Positions 1,311 to 21,497 of a stretch of DNA of 23,418 bases are shown here, one piece after another. Each line of letters opens with the position of its first letter. The stretch's first letter is position 1. The notes under the pieces were generated by a model that searched no databases, was not told where the DNA came from, and saw only the letters and a program-made list of their open reading frames with translations. Origin of the DNA: Stephanodiscus triporus (lineage: Eukaryota; Bacillariophyta; Thalassiosirophyceae; Thalassiosirales; Thalassiosiraceae); NCBI GenBank assembly GCA_036939755.1, contig JALLAZ010000100.1, positions 1 to 23,418 on the forward strand, written 5' to 3'. A program made the position numbers and the translations under genes.

Positions 1311-2718
1311 ATGGCGACGGACAGAAGTGTTGAACTGTGTTGTGGTAGATACCATGGTAGGTATTGTACTGATTCCCATCAGTTAAAAAGATCCTTACTT
1401 CATTCTTCTTTTGCCTTCTCTCCGAAACGTTCCCCACAACATCCCCGGTCAAAGCCTCTCTGTTGTTGCAGGACGCGCGCTAGAGGAGGACCGTCAACAT
1501 GAAGGAGACAGTGGGGTGAGTGACTGGATGAGGACTATTCTTCTCTACAGTGAAGAGCGACGAGTCTGGTAAAGCGGCCTCCTGTGGGGGCGCGTGTTCG
1601 CTGGCCAAACATTTGTTTCTTTTCCATTATCTCATCGGGTTCTAAATGCAAAATGTTTCTTCTTCTTGTTGTTTGCGCCCCCAAAAGTGATTTTTACGCC
1701 CATATCGTCGACGGGGTAACCGTCTCCCAACCCCTCACATCTTCTACAAAACTTCTGACATCCAAGAAGGTCCCCTCTGTCATTCACTTTTACGATGGAG
1801 GGTGAGGTGGGTGCCGCCCCTGTGCCGCTCAGATGGAGGTATGGGCCTCGAGATATGGGAAGCAGGTTCAGTTTCTCATGGTTTGTGTGGACACAGCAGG
1901 GGTGGCAATTCAGTTTGGAAAGATGTTCGGGTTAAAGAATGTCATCAATTGCTGGATTCCTAGTCGAGGTTACATGCCGGTGGGGTGCGTTCTTTGTATT
2001 GTTTCTTTTTTACCACTTTTGGTGCGCGTTGCTAAACAAAATCCACTCTTCCACATTTAGGTATGGACAGTTGGGTTGTTCCGGGTTCATTGTCTCCGAT
2101 GGACAGGGTTGCTTTGTAAGCCGCAAGACGAAAGCGTACCTCCAGTATGGCGACGATGCCTTTAGTCATGTTGAAGAGTTACTCCGCCAGAACTTCGCGA
2201 TCCAACCCTGGACAGAAGATAGAAGACATGCCAAGATAAAAGAAGATGTCTTGGATCCCAATTGGACCTTGCCTTCCGTTGGTGTTTCGAGCATGGATCA
2301 CGAACATGAAGAGTGCGAGAAGGCTCTCTCCCTTCTACTCCGCACACATACTGTCGTATCACTTAGGGAAGCACTCGAAAAATTGACGGAGCACTTCCAG
2401 CATGAAGAATGCCTGATGAAATCATCTGGATTCGGAAGCCCTGGCGAGTCATTCTCCCCTTACGCCAACCATATCAAAGATCATGAAAGGATACTTGACA
2501 TCGGTTACTTAGAGTTGGCAAAACTAACCAAGGCAAAGGAGCCACACAAGTCTTTCTTGGCGATGACCTGCTCTGACGTTCGAGAGAACGGGGCAGCCGC
2601 CTGACCATCAGCGGCGGACATTGCCATGATTGACAAGTCCGTCGCTGAAAATATTGTGTGTGAATTTAGATTGCACGCGATAAGGTTTGATATGCTGTAT
2701 CAAGGTCGTCATACATAG
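1311..2718 (+). CDS. Candidate selenoprotein: thioredoxin-fold (UGGC) fused to hemerythrin domain
   Basis: The proposed exons are 1311-1356, 1472-1515, 1767-1984 and 2061-2604 or beyond. All junctions are GT-AG and in phase. The second intron (1516-1766) is the least certain, because open frame extends upstream to about 1688. The TGA at 1803-1805 is in frame and followed by uninterrupted coding. The motif FYDGGUGGCRPC aligns with the F-x4-C-x-x-C of thioredoxins, so Sec (residue about 43) replaces the first active-site Cys. A thioredoxin-like half follows, ending near VEELL. The C-terminal half is hemerythrin-like. It has His in DHEHEE, then 29 residues on HFQHEE (His and Glu four apart), then NHIKDH (His pair four apart). 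The last ligands (His-x4-Asp) are missing before the TGA at 2602. They appear in the same frame after it (HAIRFDMLY), ending at TAG 2716-2718. Role (inferred): selenium- and iron-dependent redox or O2/peroxide chemistry. Two SECIS-like hairpins follow. Confidence 0.8.
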
Positions 2719-2737
2719 GGATCAGATCACATGTTCC

Positions 2738-2806
2738 AAAGCAGAATGATAACCCCTCGTCGTGAAATTATGCCCCCTGTATTTTGCATCAGGTTTGACA
2801 TTGCTT
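2738..2806 (+). promoter_or_regulatory. SECIS-like element 1 (3' UTR)
   Basis: Helix I is AAGCA (2739-2743) paired with TGCTT (2802-2806). An internal loop follows, then a SECIS core: ATGAT at 2746-2750 opposite TGAC at 2796-2799, which would form the non-Watson-Crick GA quartet. Helix II starts with AACC (2751-2754) paired with GGTT (2792-2795). It continues with bulges to an AAA (2765-2767) at the base of the apical loop. The upper helix is imperfect, so apical folding is uncertain. The element starts 20 bases after the TAG at 2716 and about 135 bases after the second in-frame TGA. By sequence logic it would direct Sec insertion at the upstream UGA. Confidence 0.65.
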
Positions 2807-2896
2807 ACAGGAACTCTTGATCCAAGGCACAACCCCATCCATCTTGTTTTTTTGCATAACCATCAGGTGAAGACTACTCCACGAAAGTGGGATTTC

Positions 2897-2961
2897 TAGC
2901 AGAATGATGATGTAACATGGAACTCCACTTTTTGGAGTTGCGGTTAGGTTTGAGATTGCTT
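2897..2961 (+). promoter_or_regulatory. SECIS-like element 2 (3' UTR, tandem copy)
   Basis: This repeats the flanks of element 1. The 5' box AGCAGAATGAT (2898-2908) and the 3' box AGGTTTGA-N-ATTGCTT (2946-2961) are the same as in element 1, but the interior differs. AGCA (2898-2901) pairs with TGCT (2957-2960). ATGAT (2904-2908) faces TGAG (2951-2954). TAAC (2913-2916) pairs with GTTA (2943-2946). An AA at 2921-2922 sits 13 bases after the ATGA, just below a strong CTCCA/TGGAG minihelix (2923-2927 with 2933-2937). That is the layout of a form-2 SECIS. Conserved core and helix I with a diverged interior argue for selection on RNA structure. Confidence 0.7.
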
Positions 2962-2975
2962 TTCATCACCTTGAC

Positions 2976-2981
2976 AATAAA
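2976..2981 (+). terminator. Polyadenylation signal AATAAA
   Basis: A canonical AATAAA lies 15 bases after the second SECIS-like hairpin. Use of this site would put both hairpins in the mature transcript. The remaining bases to 3301 separate this gene from the convergent coiled-coil gene and show nothing else I can name. Confidence 0.5.
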
Positions 2982-3301
2982 TTAAAGAAACTATGAAGGA
3001 TTGTGTGTGTTGCGGTTAGTTAAATATTATTGAGAAATCAAACAGCACAAGAACATTATTGTATTTTCGGAAAAGTCCTCAAAAAGGACAAGCAGAGAGC
3101 CTTGAGGCCGACCGTAAACGTGTTTGGTGCCGCTCCGCCCTTCCCCACGTCTCATTATTTGCCTTCACTTCCAACTCGACTTCCACGAGCGCGATTCTTC
3201 TTCACAATATTCAAATTTTGCCTTCTTCTCCTTCGCTTTCTTCGTCTCGTGGAATCAACAGTCTCAGGTGCCTCAGTCAGTATCTCAAGAAAGCTTCTCA
3301 G

Positions 3302-5548
3302 TCAAAGTTTATCAAGAGCTCGTCGATACTGCAGTCCTGGCTTCACTGCTCCAACAAAATTGTTAGGGTTGTATGATAGATTGATCGATGGCCAATTATC
3401 AAGGTCTACATTGATAATCCTTCCAGGTAGGAGTGAATCGTCTGATTGTTTATTATCAGGAAGGGAGGGCAAGAAATCGGCATGGGAAGCGGCATCAGCC
3501 ACCATGGGAGCAGCCTGTGTTGCCACCCCGTATGTCTCCTTAATACTTTCAGCATACTTGTGAGTGATTTTTTCGAGAACAGATTCAAGCTGAGCAAGTG
3601 CGTTGTCTCTATTAGAAACGTCGTCTTCCTTCTCAGCGATATCCACCTGTTGGGTGCGAATCACCTCTTTTGACGCGTTCAATTCGGTCACAAGTCTGTT
3701 TACATTTGTGATCATTTTTCCATGATCATCTTTCAACATAGACATGATATCATCGTTGGTTACACATTCTCTGCGCATTTTTCGTAGGATACATCGAAGC
3801 GAGTCGATATTTTGCTCCAACGTGCAATACTTTTCTTGCATTTTCAACATCTTGTCCTCGTATTTACGATTAGAAGAAATACTTGAATGTAACATTTTTT
3901 CCAAGTCCCAGATTCTCAACCTTCGATCCTCTAACTGTTTTTGGTGTTCATCTTGATATTTGCGCATCTCAATGGCGTAAGATTTATGTATTTTCTGAAA
4001 TGCTTTGTCCAGACTGAAGTACCCCATTTGCAGCCGATTCTGCAAATTGCCAATGATGTGGCGTTGGTCGGTTTCATCCAATAGAATGGATGACCAATCA
4101 ATAACATCGGATTTGTCTTTATTGTCCAGGTGTTCCAGCATCGTACGCACTTTATCATTGATCGGTTCATGAGATGTTTTCAATTTCTGATCGTTCGTGT
4201 GCAACTCTGAGCCATTCTTGACGAGTAGATTTTCTTGCACAAGACATTTCTCGTACGTTGAGCGGGTGCAGCTTAGCAAAAGGTTAAATAACACAGATGT
4301 TTCTTGCCGAAGATGTTCCGTTTCACGAACGAGTTCATCAGTTTTTGCTAACGCCCCATCCCAGTTTTGCGGAACGAATGCTATTGAACCTCTACATCTA
4401 GCGCCTTCCAACATAGCCTGAATAGACTTGCTGTAGTATGCAGCTTCCTCGGCATTCTTTTTGGATTTATCTTCAAGGGCTCTTATTGTTGTTTCGGAAT
4501 CTGAGCACCTCGATTCAAGATTACTTATCTGACACTTCAGCTGGTGCTTCTGTTGATGAAATTCGGCTTCTTGTTCGCCGATTGCACGCTCTGCCTTGTG
4601 CAGGCATGCGCCAATTTCTTTGGTTGCAGCTTGACTCTTGACAAGATCCTGTGTCAGCGTTGAGCAATGGTCATCTGCCTTTCGGAATTGGTCATTAGCC
4701 GCCATAAGATTCTGGTATAGTTGCTCGTTTTGATGTCCGAGAAGAGACAGCTGCTGCGTGAGCGAATCCTTCACGCTTTCCAACTGCCTATTCCGCTGCA
4801 CCTGCTCATAAAACTTTTCCTCCCATTGCTTTGACTCGGCTCGGACTTTTTTTTCCTCAACCACCAGTCGCCCGTGGTCAAGCAATGTTGGTTTCTGACT
4901 CTCCATTGTAGTTTCAAGGTTTCTCTTGTCCGATTTGAGCAGTCTGACCTCTGTGTCCAGTTCATTTCGGTCGGCGACTTGGTGTTTCAGCGACAATATC
5001 TGCTCCGTTAGAATATCTTGCTCGTCCTGTCTCTTCGCCATAAAATCTACCAGACGGTCACGATCTTCCTGAGCATTAACTTTGGCCTCTACCAACTTCA
5101 TGCTTAGTGTTGTTTCCCTCTCTTCTAATATTTGCATGGAGCGCTTGAAGTTCGCGATACGGGCACTCTCTCGATGGATGACTTCCATTTGTCCTCCGCA
5201 AGTCCAACACGGCCGATGTCGCAACTCGCACCCTTCTGGGGCGAATAAACGAAATGTCTCTCGTAGGTCGATCGAGGGCAAAGAGTCAAGCGACGAGAAA
5301 CTCTGGAAAGGGTTCGTCTCGTCGAAATTTTCAATGAGACCCTGCCGTCGTGCATCAATCAAGCATTCTTTGACAACCAAAACATCTCGGTGATATGCTT
5401 TTCGGATAGCATCGAGCAATTTATTGCGCCGGTCAAGGCTTCCGCGGAGTTCATTGATTTGGTCACATACGTGATATGAAGACCTTTCGTCGGGAAAATT
5501 CTGCAATTCCCTTTCTCTCTTAGGTAAATCTGCTGCTGATTTGATCAT
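3302..5548 (-). CDS. Large coiled-coil protein of unknown function
   Basis: A single 748-residue open frame without introns. Residues 1-100 are mostly helical, with a basic segment around RKAYHRDVLVVKECL (about 49-63). A Cys cluster follows at C107, C114 and C117 (PCWTCGGQ), which could bind zinc. From about residue 125 to 660 the sequence is almost continuous heptad-rich helix full of E, K, Q, R and L. The tail (about 660-748) is less ordered and rich in N, P and D. This architecture suits a structural or cytoskeletal/centrosomal scaffold, but no named family is recognisable and the role is inference. Codon use is balanced, with no GC-rich repeat tracts, unlike the genes to its right. It converges on the selenoprotein gene. 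Confidence 0.88.
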   Translation of the reverse strand: MIKSAADLPKRERELQNFPDERSSYHVCDQINELRGSLDRRNKLLDAIRKAYHRDVLVVKECLIDARRQGLIENFDETNPFQSFSSLDSLPSIDLRETFRLFAPEGCELRHRPCWTCGGQMEVIHRESARIANFKRSMQILEERETTLSMKLVEAKVNAQEDRDRLVDFMAKRQDEQDILTEQILSLKHQVADRNELDTEVRLLKSDKRNLETTMESQKPTLLDHGRLVVEEKKVRAESKQWEEKFYEQVQRNRQLESVKDSLTQQLSLLGHQNEQLYQNLMAANDQFRKADDHCSTLTQDLVKSQAATKEIGACLHKAERAIGEQEAEFHQQKHQLKCQISNLESRCSDSETTIRALEDKSKKNAEEAAYYSKSIQAMLEGARCRGSIAFVPQNWDGALAKTDELVRETEHLRQETSVLFNLLLSCTRSTYEKCLVQENLLVKNGSELHTNDQKLKTSHEPINDKVRTMLEHLDNKDKSDVIDWSSILLDETDQRHIIGNLQNRLQMGYFSLDKAFQKIHKSYAIEMRKYQDEHQKQLEDRRLRIWDLEKMLHSSISSNRKYEDKMLKMQEKYCTLEQNIDSLRCILRKMRRECVTNDDIMSMLKDDHGKMITNVNRLVTELNASKEVIRTQQVDIAEKEDDVSNRDNALAQLESVLEKITHKYAESIKETYGVATQAAPMVADAASHADFLPSLPDNKQSDDSLLPGRIINVDLDNWPSINLSYNPNNFVGAVKPGLQYRRALDKL

Positions 5549-10586: not shown

Positions 10587-13043
10587 CTACAATGGCTCCA
10601 ATTCCTTTGCCCGGATTTCAATTTCCTGTCCGCTACTGCTGCTTGACGACGTCTCCTCTAACTCCACTTCAATCTCCTTCTTCTTCGGTGCCGGAGCCAT
10701 GTTGGCTTCCACCACTTGCTTAAGCAAAGGCTTCAAGACCTCAGGTTCTTTTTCCACCTGAGCATCGACTTTAGTCTCTGATTCTGATTCATCATCATCC
10801 TCATCATCTGGAACCTCTAATCCCAATTGGGTAAGTACCGACTCTTCCTCGAATCTCTCCAATTCCTTACCACTCAGCAACTCCTTCCTCTTCTCCGCCA
10901 AGATATAATTGACTTCCTCCGAAGGAAATCCCAAACTACGCAGCACTGCTCCTCCAAACGGAAGAGTTAATAGTAAGTTGTCTTCTGGTAGGATAGGAAC
11001 CATTGCCGCCACATCCAAAGTCGTCTGCAGACGTTTGGCATGATCGGCATCCTTCGCGCGTGCAAAGATAGGTTTGTCGGGATAGAGCCTCCTCAATGCA
11101 ATGACGGCGCGAGTGGCCTCTGCTTTATCAGAGATGGTAACAATGACAGCCTTGGCCTTGCCGACTTTAAACGCTTCCGCTACCTCTTGACGTCCGATAT
11201 CACCAAAGAAGACTGGGAGACCCTTGTTTCTAGCCTGGATAGCCTTTTTCGGGTCCTTTTCCATGCCAACGTACTTAACGAACTTCTTATCCAACAGGTC
11301 GCACACGACCTTTCCAACGACTCCGTATCCAACCACGACGACGAAGTCAGAATCTTGACCGTCAGTGATCTCACGCGCATCGTCGTCTTGGCCCGTGTAA
11401 TGCGTGAAATCGGATCCCTCTTCCATCTTCTTCGCGATCTTGGTTCCCACCTGGTCCAGGAATGGAGTCAACGCCATGGTCAGGCTGACGCACGTCAGGA
11501 GCATTTTCGTGGTCGCCTTGTCCAGGATCCCGAGACTCCTCGCTAGGCCGAATGCGACGAAGGCGAACTCCCCGCCCTGGCTCAGTATCAATCCGGTCCT
11601 CACGGCCGTCGATCCGCTCAGCCCGAACGCCTTGCAAAGCAACGTCAGTATGCCCGCCTTCAATCCCAGTATGCTCGCCACGATCGCCGATACCATCGGG
11701 AGGTTCCGCGCGATGAGCCCGACGTCGATCTCAAACCCGACCGTCACAAAGAACAGTCCCAGGAGTACCCCCCGGAACGGCGCGATGTCCGCCTCGACCT
11801 GGTACCGGTACTTGGTTTCTGAAAGGAGCACGCCGGCGAGGAACGCACCGAGGGTGTTGCTCAATCCCAATCCCTCCGTTAGGAACGACATCCCGAGCGC
11901 GGTCAGGAGGATGACGCCGAGGAACGCCTCCTGCGAATTCGCAGCGGCGACCGTCTTGAAGAGGGGGTTCAGCGCGAACCGCCCGGCCAGGGCGATGCCA
12001 CTCAATGCCATGGCCGCCTTGACTAGGGCGCTCCCGAGCGCTCCCGCCATGCTTCCGCTGCCCGCCAGGATGGGCGTGGCGACCAACAGCGGCACGACCG
12101 CTGGAGTTGTGTGTGTGCGCGCAAGTGCGTGTGTAAAGAAGGGGAAAGGGTGGGTAAGGGTCGAGCACGAGAAAACGGGGGGGGGGTGCACGACAAGAGA
12201 ACCCCGCGCGTCGGGTGGCGTGAAGGAGGGGAGAAGAGATGAGACTCACCCAAATCCTGGAGCAAAAGCACCCCGAAGCTCGCCTTCCCGAACCGAGTCG
12301 CCAATTCCTTCTTGTCCTTGATCAGCTGCAGCACGAAAGCCGAGCTACTTAGACTCAGCGCCCCTCCCACCACGACCGACGCGGGTCCGCTCAATCCGCC
12401 GAAAACCTTGGCGACTAATCCGATGACGACCGCAGTTATACCGTACTGGCTCAACCCTAGTCCGAAAACGTCCTTCTTCATGCTCTTTAGCCTCTCGACG
12501 CTCAATTCTATGCCCATCTCGAATAGGAAGAAGACAATGCCGAGCTCGGCCAACGTTTCGGTCGTGTGTATCCCCGAGATCACGCCGAAGCCGTTCGGAC
12601 CAAGGAGCATCCCGCTCGCGAGGAATCCTAATATCGGCGACGTGCCGGCCATCTTGCACAGGGGCGTGATGAGGGCCGTCGCGAACAGGAGGAGGAGGGT
12701 GTCGCTCTTCGGGCCGCGCATGTAATCGCGTAGGTCGGATAACGCGTCCGTGAAAGTCTTCTGGGTCTGGGCGGACAGGTCGTCGACGGCGGAGGAGGAT
12801 GACGACGACGACGACGACGACGCGGCGGCGGCGCCTCCGCCGCCGCGGGGGGCGTCCCATCGATCGACGATGGTCCGTATCACGGGCGACGCGGGCGAGG
12901 AGGCGGACGATGGTAGTAGGCGACTCCTACTCGCGCGAGTCGTCGAGACGACGGCGTCGAGGACCCCCCCCGACCCCACGCGCGCCGCAACGGCCGCCGC
13001 CGGTGACGACGCGGAGTCCCCCCCCCCGCGAGGCGCGACGACG

Positions 13044-13075
<32 letters not shown>

Positions 13076-13729
13076 AGACGAATGACGATACGACGACGGG
13101 TCGTCGCGATGATTCGCCGCCCCCGCCGCCGCGACGGAAAGGAGGGCGGAGAACGCCACGGCGAGTCCGATCAGGTCCCTCCTACCGAGCCACGGGCGTC
13201 GTCTAAGGCCTCCGTCATCTCCCCCTCCATCTACTACTTTGCCCGAAACGACCCGTCGTCCCCGGATCCTCCTCGAAATCTCGGAGAGTGCGTATCTCGA
13301 TCTCGACCACTCCCAACGACGGCCGACGGGACCAACGACGAAGTCGTCGTCGTCGCCCGACGCGGTCGTCGCGAAATGCGGCGCGACGACGACGACGGAG
13401 GAGGAGGAGGAGGAGGAGGAGGAGGCGGCGGCGCCGCTCCGACGACGACGACGAAGATGACGGGAGGACGACGGCGCCATCATCGTAATGGCCGTACCCG
13501 TCGGGGCGAAGGACGGGGAGCCTCCTAGTCCTCCTACGCGACCACCCGCGAACGGACGGACGACGACGTTGTTGTTGATGTTGCTGTTCCCATACGACGA
13601 CGACGACGACGACGACGACAGGGCGTACGCGGTCGTCGTCGTCGAGAGCGAGAAGACGACGACGGCGGCGGCGGCGGCGGCGGCGGCGATAGCCATGGCC
13701 GTCCGGGCGGCGCGTGGCATCCTCGTCAT
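10587..13729 (-). CDS. KEA/Kef-type K+/H+ antiporter with RCK (TrkA-N) domain, probably plastid-targeted
   Basis: Exon 1 is 12250-13729 and exon 2 is 10587-12100, joined in phase across a 149-nt GT-AG intron. The junction rebuilds LLLQDLAVVPLL, a hallmark of the CPA2 family. The product is 997 residues. The N-terminus has a hydrophobic signal-like segment (about 10-36, ending TAYAL), then a long Ser-rich, basic, poorly conserved stretch with another hydrophobic segment. This fits the bipartite presequence of diatom plastid proteins, although the +1 residue appears to be Leu rather than Phe. The exchanger domain runs from about 340 to 720 (LLGPNGFGVISG, LGIVFFLFEMGIEL, NTLGAFLAGVLLSE, LSQGGEFAFVAFG). 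The RCK domain starts about 747 with the nucleotide-binding GYGVVG (751-756). Plant KEA1-3 act in envelope or thylakoid K+/H+ exchange. The tail is acidic. The exchanger core assignment is firm; plastid location is inference. Confidence 0.92.
13046..13075. repeat. (CGA)n trinucleotide tract in antiporter presequence
   Basis: About ten CGA units, read on the minus strand as TCG (Ser). Similar tracts at about 12798-12822 (CGA), 13398-13423 (GGA), 13590-13618 (CGA) and 13660-13688 (GGC, poly-Ala) all fall in the N-terminal 330 residues, outside the exchanger core. Confidence 0.9.
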
Positions 13730-14193: not shown

Positions 14194-16052
14194 ATGAGAT
14201 CACACCAGAGAGGTAATAATCATACTCTCCGTCGACCCCGCCCCCGGCCCCGGCCCCGGCCCGCGACTGTCCCGATGTGCTTCTGTTGCTGGTGGGCGGA
14301 CTGGGACGGCACGGATGACGGCCCGTCCGCGCCCGCCCATTATCGTCCCCCCCCCGCCGGGACGACGATCGACGGGTCGGCGGCGGTCGGGGACGACGAA
14401 CAACAACGCCCCCCCGCGCCGCCCGAATTGACGCTGTCGATCGTGCGATTGGGCCGTCGCCGTCCCCCCCCCCCCCTTGACGACGACGACGACGACATCG
14501 CGACGACGGTCGATCGACGTCCGATATCGGAGACGGCATCGGCCGTCATCGACGACCTATCGTGCGTCTCGCCGGAGGAGTACGACGCCCGACCCCTCAA
14601 CCTCCTCGGGAGACGACGATTGTCGCCGCGTACTCCCCCTACCCCTCCCGTGGATCGTCGCCACGACGTCGACGACCGCGCGCGTCGGCGACGGGAGGCG
14701 GCGAAGGCGTCCATAACGAGATATCGCAACGACGACGACAGGAGGACGGCGTTCGCGTCTCTGCTGCTCAAGAGCGTGGCGTACCATCGCTCGGTCGATC
14801 CGGATTTCGGACAGTCCTCCTCCCCGTCGTCGTCGTCGTCGTCGTGGGGGGGGGGGAGGAGGAGGAGGAGGACGACGACGACGACGACGACGACGGGGAT
14901 TGTCGTCGAGGGAGGACGACGAAGCTTCCAATCGTCGACCTACCGCGCACCGGGCACGGCCGACCCTATCTGCCCCGTCGTCCGAAAGACGACGACGACG
15001 ACGACGAAGACGACGACGACGTGACATCGCGTCCATTCTCCTCCTCCTCCCATCCCGAGGGAGGGGAGATCGTCGACGAGGATCGTCGTTCCCTGATGAA
15101 CGTGTCGCACCAGCACCCCTGGGTGTGCATGGTGCAGCGTCGTCGGCGATGGTCGCGGGGGCGACGGTCCCGTACGTCGTCGGGAACGTACGCGCGCGTC
15201 GCGTCGACGTCGTCGTCGTCGTCGTCGTCCACCTCCTCCTCCTCGATCGGTCTCGACGTCGTTGTCTTCGACGCGAGGATCAGTCGTCACACTCCTACCG
15301 TGTCGGACTTCCTGAAGCCGTTCGTCGGGAGCTTCACCCCTTGGGAGTGGGAGAGGATCGCGTGCGTTCGCATGCGACGTCCGTCGTCGTCGTCGTCGTC
15401 AACGCGCGGTGGCGGCGGCGACATTCATACCCCCGGCAGGAGGAGCGACGATGATTATGCGCCCCCGCCCCCCCGCGCTCGACCTAGGACCGACGGGTCG
15501 AGGCTGATCGAGTTCTACCTCCGCTGGTCGATGAAGGAGGCGTACACCAAGGCGTTGGGATTGGGCATGACGGTGAACTTCGACGAGTTGGAGATACGAC
15601 TGTACGGTACGGATATCGACGCGGTAGACGATGACGACGATAACGACGAGGAGGAGGAGGAGGAGGGCATATGGAATTCCATCGGGATGCGTTCATCGTC
15701 GAACGGTTTACGTCGGGGTAGCGTCGACAGACGTCGATACTACTCCGCCATCGGCAGGGTGAAGCGTCTAAGATCGACGACGACTACGATGACAACGAAA
15801 ACGACGTCGTCGTGGGACGCGTGGGAGTTCATTTTCGTCCCCCTCGGCGGCGACGATCTCGGACCCGAATGCGATCCCACGGTTTGTCCCTCGCCTCGGG
15901 TCGTCGTCGGCGACGAATCGGCATGCGCCTGCATTTGCAGGGGTCCTTTGCCGAAGAATGCGTCGTACGGCCGAGTCGAGAGGTGTCACATCGTACTCGA
16001 ATCCCTGACGTTGACTGATCTGATTCGGCTGCACGGAGGCGGTCCGTTGTGA
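14194..16052 (+). CDS. 4'-phosphopantetheinyl transferase (Sfp/AASDHPPT type), frame change in repeat tract
   Basis: The enzyme moves 4'-phosphopantetheine from CoA to a serine of acyl or peptidyl carrier proteins. The N-terminal part (frame from 14194) holds the family pattern ITRYRNDDDRRTAFASLLLKS. From about 14915 the frame shifts and gives LPRTGHGRPYLP, then LMNVSHQHPWVCMV, the Mg-binding GLDVVVFD, and RWSMKEAYTKALGLGM, the diagnostic W-x2-KEA-x3-K. The tail has WEFIFVPL. The two frames are separated by 11 G, GGA and GAC repeats at 14826-14895. Either a 71-nt intron (14844-14914, phase-compatible GT-AG) or a one-base error or slip in the G run reconciles them. The G-run reading gives a Glu/Asp tract like those in neighbours, so I lean to it. 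The start could also be the ATG at 14275. Multiple Asp/Ser inserts make the protein longer than typical (about 250-350). Confidence 0.85.
14826..14895. repeat. Compound microsatellite (TCG)n-G11-(GGA)n-(CGA)n
   Basis: TCG repeats to 14845 are followed by 11 consecutive G (14846-14856), then GGA units, then about eight CGA units to about 14895. The tract sits exactly where the phosphopantetheinyl transferase changes reading frame. Confidence 0.9.
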
Positions 16053-19025: not shown

Positions 19026-21497
19026 ATGATGACGAACCCATTCAGGCAGCGAAACAATGCAAAAACAACTATATTATTTATCATTATACTATTTGCTATC
19101 GAAACAATAGTTCAACGATGGGTCGATAAAAGTACGCCTCGCCGAACTGATCATGCTGAGCTCTCGCTTGACGAGTACAAAATACATGCTAAGCGACCAC
19201 AACAGATCTCCCCACGTCCTGAAGAGCATTCAGCCTTCTACTCCATCAGTGATAACATAAAAAAAGAGTACGAGCAATGGCACGCGTTGGTATGGAATTT
19301 ATCCCAAATGAAGCTGCAGCCGACGAATTGGACGCCCGACATCAATGATTGGCATCACCACCCAAGAGATAGATCAGATCGTTTTCCAAGCGTCGCTCAA
19401 CGCGTGCAATACTACATGGGAAAGTGGTACAATTCATCAATACCAATGTATGGTCGAAAGTTCGAGAAGGCTACGTTTATACAGCGAAAGACCACCCGTG
19501 AGTTTGGACCATACTCCAACATTTTGGTAAACTTATACAATCTTGATAAGGGTAGATTGCTCCAATGCTACGAGAGCAAGAAGGAAATGAAAGTCTTCTC
19601 TCCATATTGTAGAGATTATACCGATATCGCAATCTTGCACTCTGAAGGGTCGGCGGACGTATTACATTACATTGGTGATGGACTTCCATACATATCCGAC
19701 GAGATCAGGAGGTATCCGTTATTCGCAAAGGTTCGACACCTTTGCGATGCGGACGCAAGCGAATTTAAGGCTAACCCATGCTGGAAAACGGAAAATTGGA
19801 TACAACCAATCCTTCTTCCACTCAATCGAAAGCGACATTATGGAGTGGCGTCGATCGTTCCTGAGAATGATATTCCATGGGAATTGAAAAAAGGCCGGGC
19901 GGTATGGAGAGGAAAGTATCGCAACGCCCACGATGCATCGACTCTTTTGGTCTCCAAGCATCACAACTCGACATTGGTCGACTGTAAGTTTTCCAAGAAT
20001 ACGATAGGCGTTTCTAGGCATTTGGTGGGTTCTTATATGGATATGAAGGATCAACTTACTTACAAATACATCATTTCAATAGAAGGTAACGACGTCTCGT
20101 CTGGCCTGAAGTGGATGCTATTATCAAATTCTGTTGTGTTGACACCTCCGTTTACGATGGAATCATGGGCAATGGAGGGAAAGTTGAAGCCGTTTGTACA
20201 TTTCATTCCGTTGAAAGCTGACATGTCGAACGTTGAAGACATGATTAGGTGGGCAGAAATGCATCCAAAAGAGACCCGATTGATATCAGAACGCAGCACT
20301 CTCTTTGTTTATGACGAATTCTTTCATCCCGATGCCATTAAAGATGAGAAGGAAATTATTATCCGCATTATGGAGCGGTACGAGCAGAACTTTGGACATG
20401 ATGCGGAAACGAGACGACAAACATTAGGAACTCATTCGAACAAGCTTCCGCCAAAACGAGCTAGATTCCCTTCCGTGCAAGAAAGGGTCGAGTTTCTAAT
20501 GGGCAAATGGTATCACAACGAAGATGCTATCTCTATGCAAAGATCAAATCTACGAATTTTGTTCCATTCATCACTGAACAATACCATCTCAAGAGACAGA
20601 CTCTTCATAGCATCTGGGCACCATTTGTCGGAATGTGCCATGGCCAACAGTACATTTTCGAAGGACGTTCGTTTATTGTGCCAATCGTCACTACAACATT
20701 TTGATGAGAGACTCACTGCCGACCTCAAGTCAAATTCATTCAATAGACTTCGCCAGTCAGAAACGGGAGCGAAGATACGGTTTGCTCCTAAATCTTCTTG
20801 GAGGCATGATGGAGACAATGCCATAAAAGAATCCAAGAGGGTAATCCTCGATGACATAATCAAGATAATTTGCATAGGAAACTGCTCACGGGAAGGAGTC
20901 AACGCGAATATAAACACAAGAGCATTCCCATACTTTGCCAGTTACAGGCAAAACAACGATGCCATTCTTTGGCCATTTAATCTCGACTATGCATATGACA
21001 TAGCCAAGTATGGCTGGCTTGAAAATTGGGACATAAATTTTGAAGACAAAACTGCCGATGCAGCAGCGTCCATTGGAATAAGAAAGATACCTTTTACTGT
21101 CAACGAATTATATTCTAAAAAGAATGATCGAATTCGCGATATGCTATCGCACCGGTATTTGTTGGCAACGGATAGCGTGGAGGGCATCAATGAAGACCTC
21201 ATATGGATGCTGCTGAGTAAAAGTGTAGTGCTCATGCCAGGTGAACGACAATTCACATCATCATGGCTGATGGAGAGCTTCCTGGAACCATACTCGCATT
21301 TCATCCCTGTTGCACCCGATTACTCAGATGTCTATGAAAAAATCAACTGGTGTGAAAATAATCTTGAAAAGGCCAGGGATATTTCGGAGCGTGCAACCAT
21401 ATATGTTCATGATATGTTGTTAGACAGAAGCTCGGAAAAGGAAAATGAGGAGATAAAATTTCAAGTAATGGAGAGGTATTCAAAGATTTTCGGATGA
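19026..21497 (+). CDS. Type II membrane protein with tandem GT90 (CAP10-like) glycosyltransferase domains
   Basis: 823 residues, no intron. A basic N-terminus and one hydrophobic segment (about 14-30) predict a Golgi/ER type II anchor with a lumenal catalytic part. Two homologous units follow. Unit 1 starts RFPSVAQRVQYYMGKWY (about 119) and unit 2 starts RFPSVQERVEFLMGKWY (about 480), a period near 361 residues. Unit 1 carries GT90 hallmarks: GRAVWRGKYRN, YKYIISIEG, SGLKWMLLSNSVVLTP, LKPFVHFIPL and the closing IMERYEQNFG. Unit 2 keeps IWMLLSKSVVLMP, LEPYSHFIPV and VMERYSKIFG. It has lost the W-R-G box and the K-Y-x4-EG context, so it is probably a non-catalytic or repurposed domain. GT90 enzymes add xylose or glucose to glycans or proteins (POGLUT, Cryptococcus CAP10). 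The exact donor is unknown. Codon use is AT-leaning, unlike its GC-rich neighbours. A doubled ATG at the start leaves a one-codon ambiguity. Confidence 0.92.
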   Translation: MMTNPFRQRNNAKTTILFIIILFAIETIVQRWVDKSTPRRTDHAELSLDEYKIHAKRPQQISPRPEEHSAFYSISDNIKKEYEQWHALVWNLSQMKLQPTNWTPDINDWHHHPRDRSDRFPSVAQRVQYYMGKWYNSSIPMYGRKFEKATFIQRKTTREFGPYSNILVNLYNLDKGRLLQCYESKKEMKVFSPYCRDYTDIAILHSEGSADVLHYIGDGLPYISDEIRRYPLFAKVRHLCDADASEFKANPCWKTENWIQPILLPLNRKRHYGVASIVPENDIPWELKKGRAVWRGKYRNAHDASTLLVSKHHNSTLVDCKFSKNTIGVSRHLVGSYMDMKDQLTYKYIISIEGNDVSSGLKWMLLSNSVVLTPPFTMESWAMEGKLKPFVHFIPLKADMSNVEDMIRWAEMHPKETRLISERSTLFVYDEFFHPDAIKDEKEIIIRIMERYEQNFGHDAETRRQTLGTHSNKLPPKRARFPSVQERVEFLMGKWYHNEDAISMQRSNLRILFHSSLNNTISRDRLFIASGHHLSECAMANSTFSKDVRLLCQSSLQHFDERLTADLKSNSFNRLRQSETGAKIRFAPKSSWRHDGDNAIKESKRVILDDIIKIICIGNCSREGVNANINTRAFPYFASYRQNNDAILWPFNLDYAYDIAKYGWLENWDINFEDKTADAAASIGIRKIPFTVNELYSKKNDRIRDMLSHRYLLATDSVEGINEDLIWMLLSKSVVLMPGERQFTSSWLMESFLEPYSHFIPVAPDYSDVYEKINWCENNLEKARDISERATIYVHDMLLDRSSEKENEEIKFQVMERYSKIFG

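Follow-up and report, generated by a model that had tools for sequence, protein, structure and literature searches.

The gene at positions 1499–2718 of the window (the whole 23,418-nt stretch of Stephanodiscus triporus DNA analysed here) very likely encodes a diatom selenoprotein with two selenocysteine (Sec) codons, which would place Sec at residues 45 and 286 of one chain. The product is a TlpA/DsbE-like fold fused to a hemerythrin domain. Two in-frame TGA triplets, hereafter TGA-1 and TGA-2, occur in a single reading frame, and comparison with homologous proteins indicates that the coding sequence flanking each of them on either side is conserved. In addition, two homologues have Cys close to the TGA-2 column, the genome contains a Sec tRNA together with other Sec genes, and the model of one homologue matches both folds. 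If both triplets are read as Sec, selenium chemistry and a diiron-type domain are combined in one diatom enzyme, with the second Sec codon deciding whether that domain is completed, and this reading has implications for the use that diatoms make of selenium. An earlier note on this DNA had recognized TGA-1, but missed the second in-frame TGA at 2602–2604 and the hemerythrin domain.

Gene structure and the first in-frame TGA

The predicted spliced model joins three exons (1499–1515, 1688–1984 and 2061–2718) into a frame of 323 codons (Table 1). Exactly two internal stops are found in this model, both of them TGA; the final stop is TAG at 2716–2718, and no further stop or frameshift occurs across the 323 codons of the window copy. 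The N-terminus encoded by exon 1 agrees with that of full-length homologues (e.g., M..VGDFYVH).

Table 1. Features of the proposed two-Sec gene and its 3' flank (window coordinates).
Feature	Position	Strand	Basis
Exon 1, MKETVG (first two bases of the Gly codon); predicted	1499–1515	+	ATG at 1499, splice sites, frame kept
Intron 1; predicted	1516–1687	+	GTGAGT...CAAAAG splice sites
Exon 2, most of the thioredoxin-like domain	1688–1984	+	Read-through, splice sites, thioredoxin match
TGA-1, residue 45, proposed Sec at the attacking position	1803–1805	+	Frame, thioredoxin alignment, homologue starts
C48-R-P-C51, Cys residues after Sec45	1812–1823	+	Sequence; coordinates from the spliced frame
Intron 2; predicted	1985–2060	+	GTGCGT...ATTTAG splice sites
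Exon 3, from the last part of the thioredoxin-like domain through linker and hemerythrin domain (with TGA-2 and helix D) to the TAG stop	2061–2718	+	Sequence, frame
Hemerythrin domain, about residues 178–320; approximate borders	2278–2706	+	Borders inferred from the P0026 model and alignment A2
C275, possible redox partner; Cys located 11 residues upstream of TGA-2	2569–2571	+	Conserved; role inferred
TGA-2, residue 286, proposed second Sec	2602–2604	+	Frame, homologue ends, W/Cys in homologues
Stretch of 37 codons downstream of TGA-2; helix D of the hemerythrin domain, including H310 and D315	2605–2715	+	Tail conservation, P0026 model
SECIS-like hairpin in the 3' UTR; candidate	2898–2960	+	Home-made SECIS scans, folding

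As the earlier note had stated, TGA-1 lies within a thioredoxin-like frame; read-through yields FYDGGUGGCRPCAAQ, conserved on both sides of the stop, and F40 precedes residue 45 by the five residues claimed. When residue 45 was typed as Cys, the alignment to the thioredoxin of PDB entry 1t00 was gap-free around the active site, with residue 45 meeting the first Cys of CGPC and C48 facing the second. The proposed placement of the UGA at the first Cys of CxxC, with a Cys three residues later, is borne out by this alignment, and C51 follows as well (UxxCxxC). Sec45 would stand at the attacking position, where the helix that follows the first core strand of the TlpA/DsbE-like thioredoxin fold begins. 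One detail had to be revised: the TGA corresponds to residue 45 of the spliced model rather than to residue 43. The suggested search for Cys at this column in homologues found it in none of the nine that span the column among the matches listed, all nine having W there.

The homologue set comprised 121 proteins, i.e., 120 listed of the 205 found, and one added from a region-limited protein search (the region-limited searches returned two matches each, one of them new). Among the matches listed, the predicted start coincides exactly with M55, the first Met after TGA-1, in 78 of the 121 homologues, and in the nine homologues that span the TGA-1 column the segment upstream of it is conserved too; ten homologues whose alignment crosses the column but has a gap at it were not included among these nine. 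All of the seven MMETSP homologues labelled 'type:complete' (among the matches listed) begin just after the TGA-1 column. This label presumably denotes a transcript-derived record, and such starts are expected if the stop stays in the mRNA. Sec at TGA-1 is well supported.

The species-named homologues among the matches listed are diatoms, including Thalassiosirales, Eupodiscales and Bacillariales as well as Thalassiosira and Mediolabrus, with the single exception of P0025, a EukProt record labelled Alexandrium tamarense.

Hemerythrin domain and the second in-frame TGA

The model of homologue P0026 matches DsbE over 1–151 and myohemerythrin over 173–312. A hemerythrin four-helix bundle was found, and its helix D comes after the W at the TGA-2 column in the P0026 model. 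The sequence match to myohemerythrin covers the first helices only, helix D being placed by the P0026 model, and the hemerythrin family models score below the cut-off. Of the seven iron ligands of myohemerythrin (H25, H54, E58, H73, H77, H106 and D111), three are aligned in the sequence match (H25, H54 and E58); H242, H246, H310 and D315 of the window protein are invariant in alignment A2. H310 and D315 would correspond to the last two ligands, H106 and D111, judging solely from where the structural ranges end.

The 37 codons between TGA-2 and the TAG stop read PSAADIAMIDKSVAENIVCEFRLHAIRFDMLYQGRHT. These residues were compared with the tail of each of 11 homologues: for 10 of them no shuffle out of 1000 reached the match score, while for P0104 5 of 1000 did. 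Besides the two putative iron-ligand residues H310 and D315, F307, F314, L317 and Y318 are invariant in A2. At the TGA-2 column, W is found in 9 of the 11 homologues with helix D, and a nearby Cys in 2 of the 11 (P0087 and P0090; both counts among the matches listed). In A2, this Cys is three columns beyond the TGA-2 column in P0087 and five columns ahead of it in P0090, the linker being variable in length and the two columns different; both proteins begin at M55.

C275 is conserved in at least 90% of alignment A2. A Cys is also found 0–15 residues before the end in 94 of the 101 homologues that end before helix D (among the matches listed), and four of the seven exceptions are cut three residues after the DHxRIL motif. 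P0104 has no Cys in the tail preceding its W. As a separate observation, Cys is the last residue of ten homologues (P0060, P0081, P0085, P0097, P0098, P0100, P0101, P0112, P0117 and P0119), some of which close as CxxC (SCEAC, SCGAC).

The C-terminal ends were judged by means of the DHxRIL motif, which made 112 of the 121 homologues usable; the nine without the motif were left out. Among the matches listed, helix D is retained by 11 of the 112 motif-bearing homologues, and the other 101 have predicted ends ahead of it. Such ends would suit a one-Sec TlpA selenoprotein in which TGA-1 alone is Sec, while TGA-2 is a true stop in most members and the tail is lineage-restricted or made at a low level, and the accessible text of the 2020 algal selenoproteome survey (Jiang et al., PMC7539508) names no second Sec for TlpA. 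However, since standard-code predictions end at a TGA anyway, the 101 short homologues do not separate one Sec from two. Moreover, the tail that follows TGA-2 in the window is conserved and carries residues invariant in A2, the hemerythrin domain would lose helix D without it, and P0087 and P0090 read through with Cys nearby. A single Sec is thus considered rather improbable, and the reading with Sec at both TGA-1 and TGA-2 is preferred.

Selenium machinery, reading of TGA and the SECIS candidate

The genome search covered 21.65 Mb in 1,324 contigs. A tRNA-Sec with the anticodon TCA was found (83.7 bits), together with a second tRNA-Sec match of 71.1 bits, and SelD/SPS2 was detected at 208.4 bits, with its TGA at LKGUACKVP. 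Both tRNA-Sec matches (L007 and L008) are above the Rfam cut-off; the second has an odd anticodon loop according to ARAGORN and adjoins an RNase MRP match. SepSecS was not found in the 21.65 Mb (1,324 contigs) searched. Two further genes have an in-frame TGA: a GPX, at VASKUGLT, and a SELENOT-like gene, at FCTSUGMK; a TAG, which may be intronic, also falls within the stretch matched in GPX. Separately, L023 (G000:C42:22121-22945, minus strand) matches AhpC-TSA_2 and has two TGA inside; it could be a SELENOU-type gene or contain an intron.

The W residues that homologues carry at the TGA-1 and TGA-2 columns most likely stand for TGA, as far as can be judged from protein records. P0009 reads CGADAWPSAAE, while P0001 and P0012, which are 98.9% identical to it over 179 residues and 99.4% over 176, respectively, stop exactly at CGADA. 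A gene caller operating under translation table 4 writes TGA as W, and stops of P0001 and P0012 facing the W of P0009 fit a TGA read in this way. In P0121, 8 of the 159 leading residues are W, against a TGG share of 1.3% among triplets of the window's upstream stretch, which would be consistent with table 4 as well. Neither a residue at the TGA-1 column nor hemerythrin helix D is present in any of the 16 MMETSP, EukProt, UniRef or species-named NCBI homologues among the matches listed. Scans of viral_contigs and genome_contigs for DNA of relatives yielded none.

The same W residues, seen in 9 of the 9 homologues spanning TGA-1 and 9 of the 11 with helix D (among the matches listed), could alternatively be taken to mean that TGA is decoded as Trp at one or both sites, through a changed code or through stop-codon read-through by tRNA-Trp. 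Against this, internal stops are absent from 25 of the genome's 26 chlorophyll-binding stretches (the remaining one has two TGA and one TAG), so that there is no sign of general decoding of TGA as Trp; the TGA of GPX, SELENOT and SPS2 stands at the Sec site; P0087 and P0090 have Cys, not Trp, near TGA-2; and Trp at the column of the first thioredoxin Cys makes little chemical sense. On the strength of the chlorophyll-binding stretches and the Cys homologues, decoding as Trp was set aside as highly improbable. Even less credible is that TGA-1 is spliced out, or that either TGA is a sequencing error or the mark of a dead gene: GGTGAG at 1801–1806 does resemble a 5' splice site and a broken fragment of the gene also exists in the genome, but there is no sign of splicing, in line with the earlier note, removal of the 31-nt GT-AG stretch 1802–1832 would break the frame, the MMETSP 'type:complete' homologues (7 of 7 among the matches listed) begin after the TGA-1 column, many separate records share both the start and the end places, and the window copy is otherwise intact over its 323 codons.

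The broken fragment, at C446:13067-13506 on the minus strand within locus L006 (G000:C446:9500-15303), is homologous to the last part of exon 2 and a portion of exon 3 and has a TGA inside. By reading of the matches, it contains neither TGA region of the window gene and is therefore uninformative on both.

In the candidate SECIS hairpin (Table 1), downstream of the Sec45/Sec286 frame, the lower stem is AGCAG/TTGCT, and an upper stem follows beyond the internal loop AATGAT/TGAGA, with AA located 13 nt after ATGA. The z value of its energy is −2.78, with 1 of 200 shuffles as good, and equally good SECIS candidates appeared in shuffled UTRs in 6 of 400 and 3 of 300 cases. The home-made scan is unspecific: it gave 24 candidates in 46,836 bases (the window, both strands), nine of which, including the hairpin itself, are as good by the cut-offs. 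The Rfam SECIS model had no match in 1400–3400 nor anywhere in the genome, despite the classic Sec genes there. With looser spacing, the home-made scan yielded one SECIS candidate for GPX and one for SPS2, while none passed the scans of the SELENOT gene, where weak folds only were seen. The hairpin may act as a SECIS element, and as such it weakly supports the selenoprotein reading.

Proposed function and relation to known selenoproteins

In the proposed enzyme, Sec45 of UGGCRPC would be the catalytic selenol; it may attack a disulfide or a peroxide, with resolution by C48 or C51. Sec286, located in the loop before helix D, and C275 may form a second redox centre, a mobile one on the linker, with which Sec45 may exchange electrons. 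The hemerythrin domain would bind iron, and perhaps oxygen, beside these redox centres. Decoding of TGA-2 would be needed for helix D, which carries the last two residues of iron-ligand type. Because helix D would be made only if TGA-2 is decoded, whether the iron site is completed would be controlled by the supply of selenium. Such selenium gating, in which Sec leads to helix D and a complete diiron hemerythrin, whereas without Sec synthesis ends at TGA-1 or TGA-2 and no complete site is formed, is put forward tentatively, as something possible rather than probable. If true, it would constitute a built-in selenium-iron-oxygen switch across diatoms. Most of the homologue records examined are cut at both ends, missing the active site and the last helix of iron-binding type.

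According to the 2020 survey, diatom selenoproteomes are large, and algae possess a TlpA selenoprotein with a hemerythrin metal-binding domain, 80% of TlpA members containing Sec (PMC7539508). The make-up of thioredoxin-like and hemerythrin parts agrees with the window protein, by description only and with Sec predicted here from sequence. From this description of TlpA, TGA-1 probably belongs to the published family; the part of the earlier claim that sees a selenoprotein at TGA-1 stands, but its newness is doubtful. A thioredoxin-like/thioredoxin-fold selenoprotein was also described from Thalassiosira pseudonana (Lobanov et al. 2007, PMC2375036). By description, both it and the window protein are thioredoxin-type diatom selenoproteins, but the word 'hemerythrin' is absent from the main text of that paper. 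What is probably new is the second Sec, on which helix D depends, as the accessible text of the two papers describes none in this protein.

Compared with TlpA/ResA/DsbE thiol-disulfide oxidoreductases, the window protein has UGGCRPC in place of CxxC, as well as the hemerythrin fusion; compared with myohemerythrin and other hemerythrins, its last helix is encoded beyond an in-frame TGA and a thioredoxin-like domain is fused to it. Eukaryotic proteins with several Sec residues include SELENOP, two-Sec SELENOW, two-Sec SELENOJ and MSP, going by the accessible text of both papers (PMC7539508, PMC2375036). More than one Sec per chain is common to all of these and the proposed enzyme, whereas the Sec residues here would lie in different domains, the second preceding a helix with residues of metal-ligand type.

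Several other elements were observed in the window. A perfect-to-97% palindrome at 687–758, with two 36-nt arms and no spacer, is perhaps a small mobile element or a hairpin, and a 64-base copy of it, 92% identical, occurs at G000:C742:2206-2269. On the minus strand, a match to a sodium/hydrogen exchanger with a TrkA-N domain spans two ORFs at 10587–13729 that overlap and probably represent exons of a single gene. On the plus strand, the ORF at 14562–16052 matches phosphopantetheinyl transferase, and that at 19026–21497 matches a family 90 glycosyltransferase.
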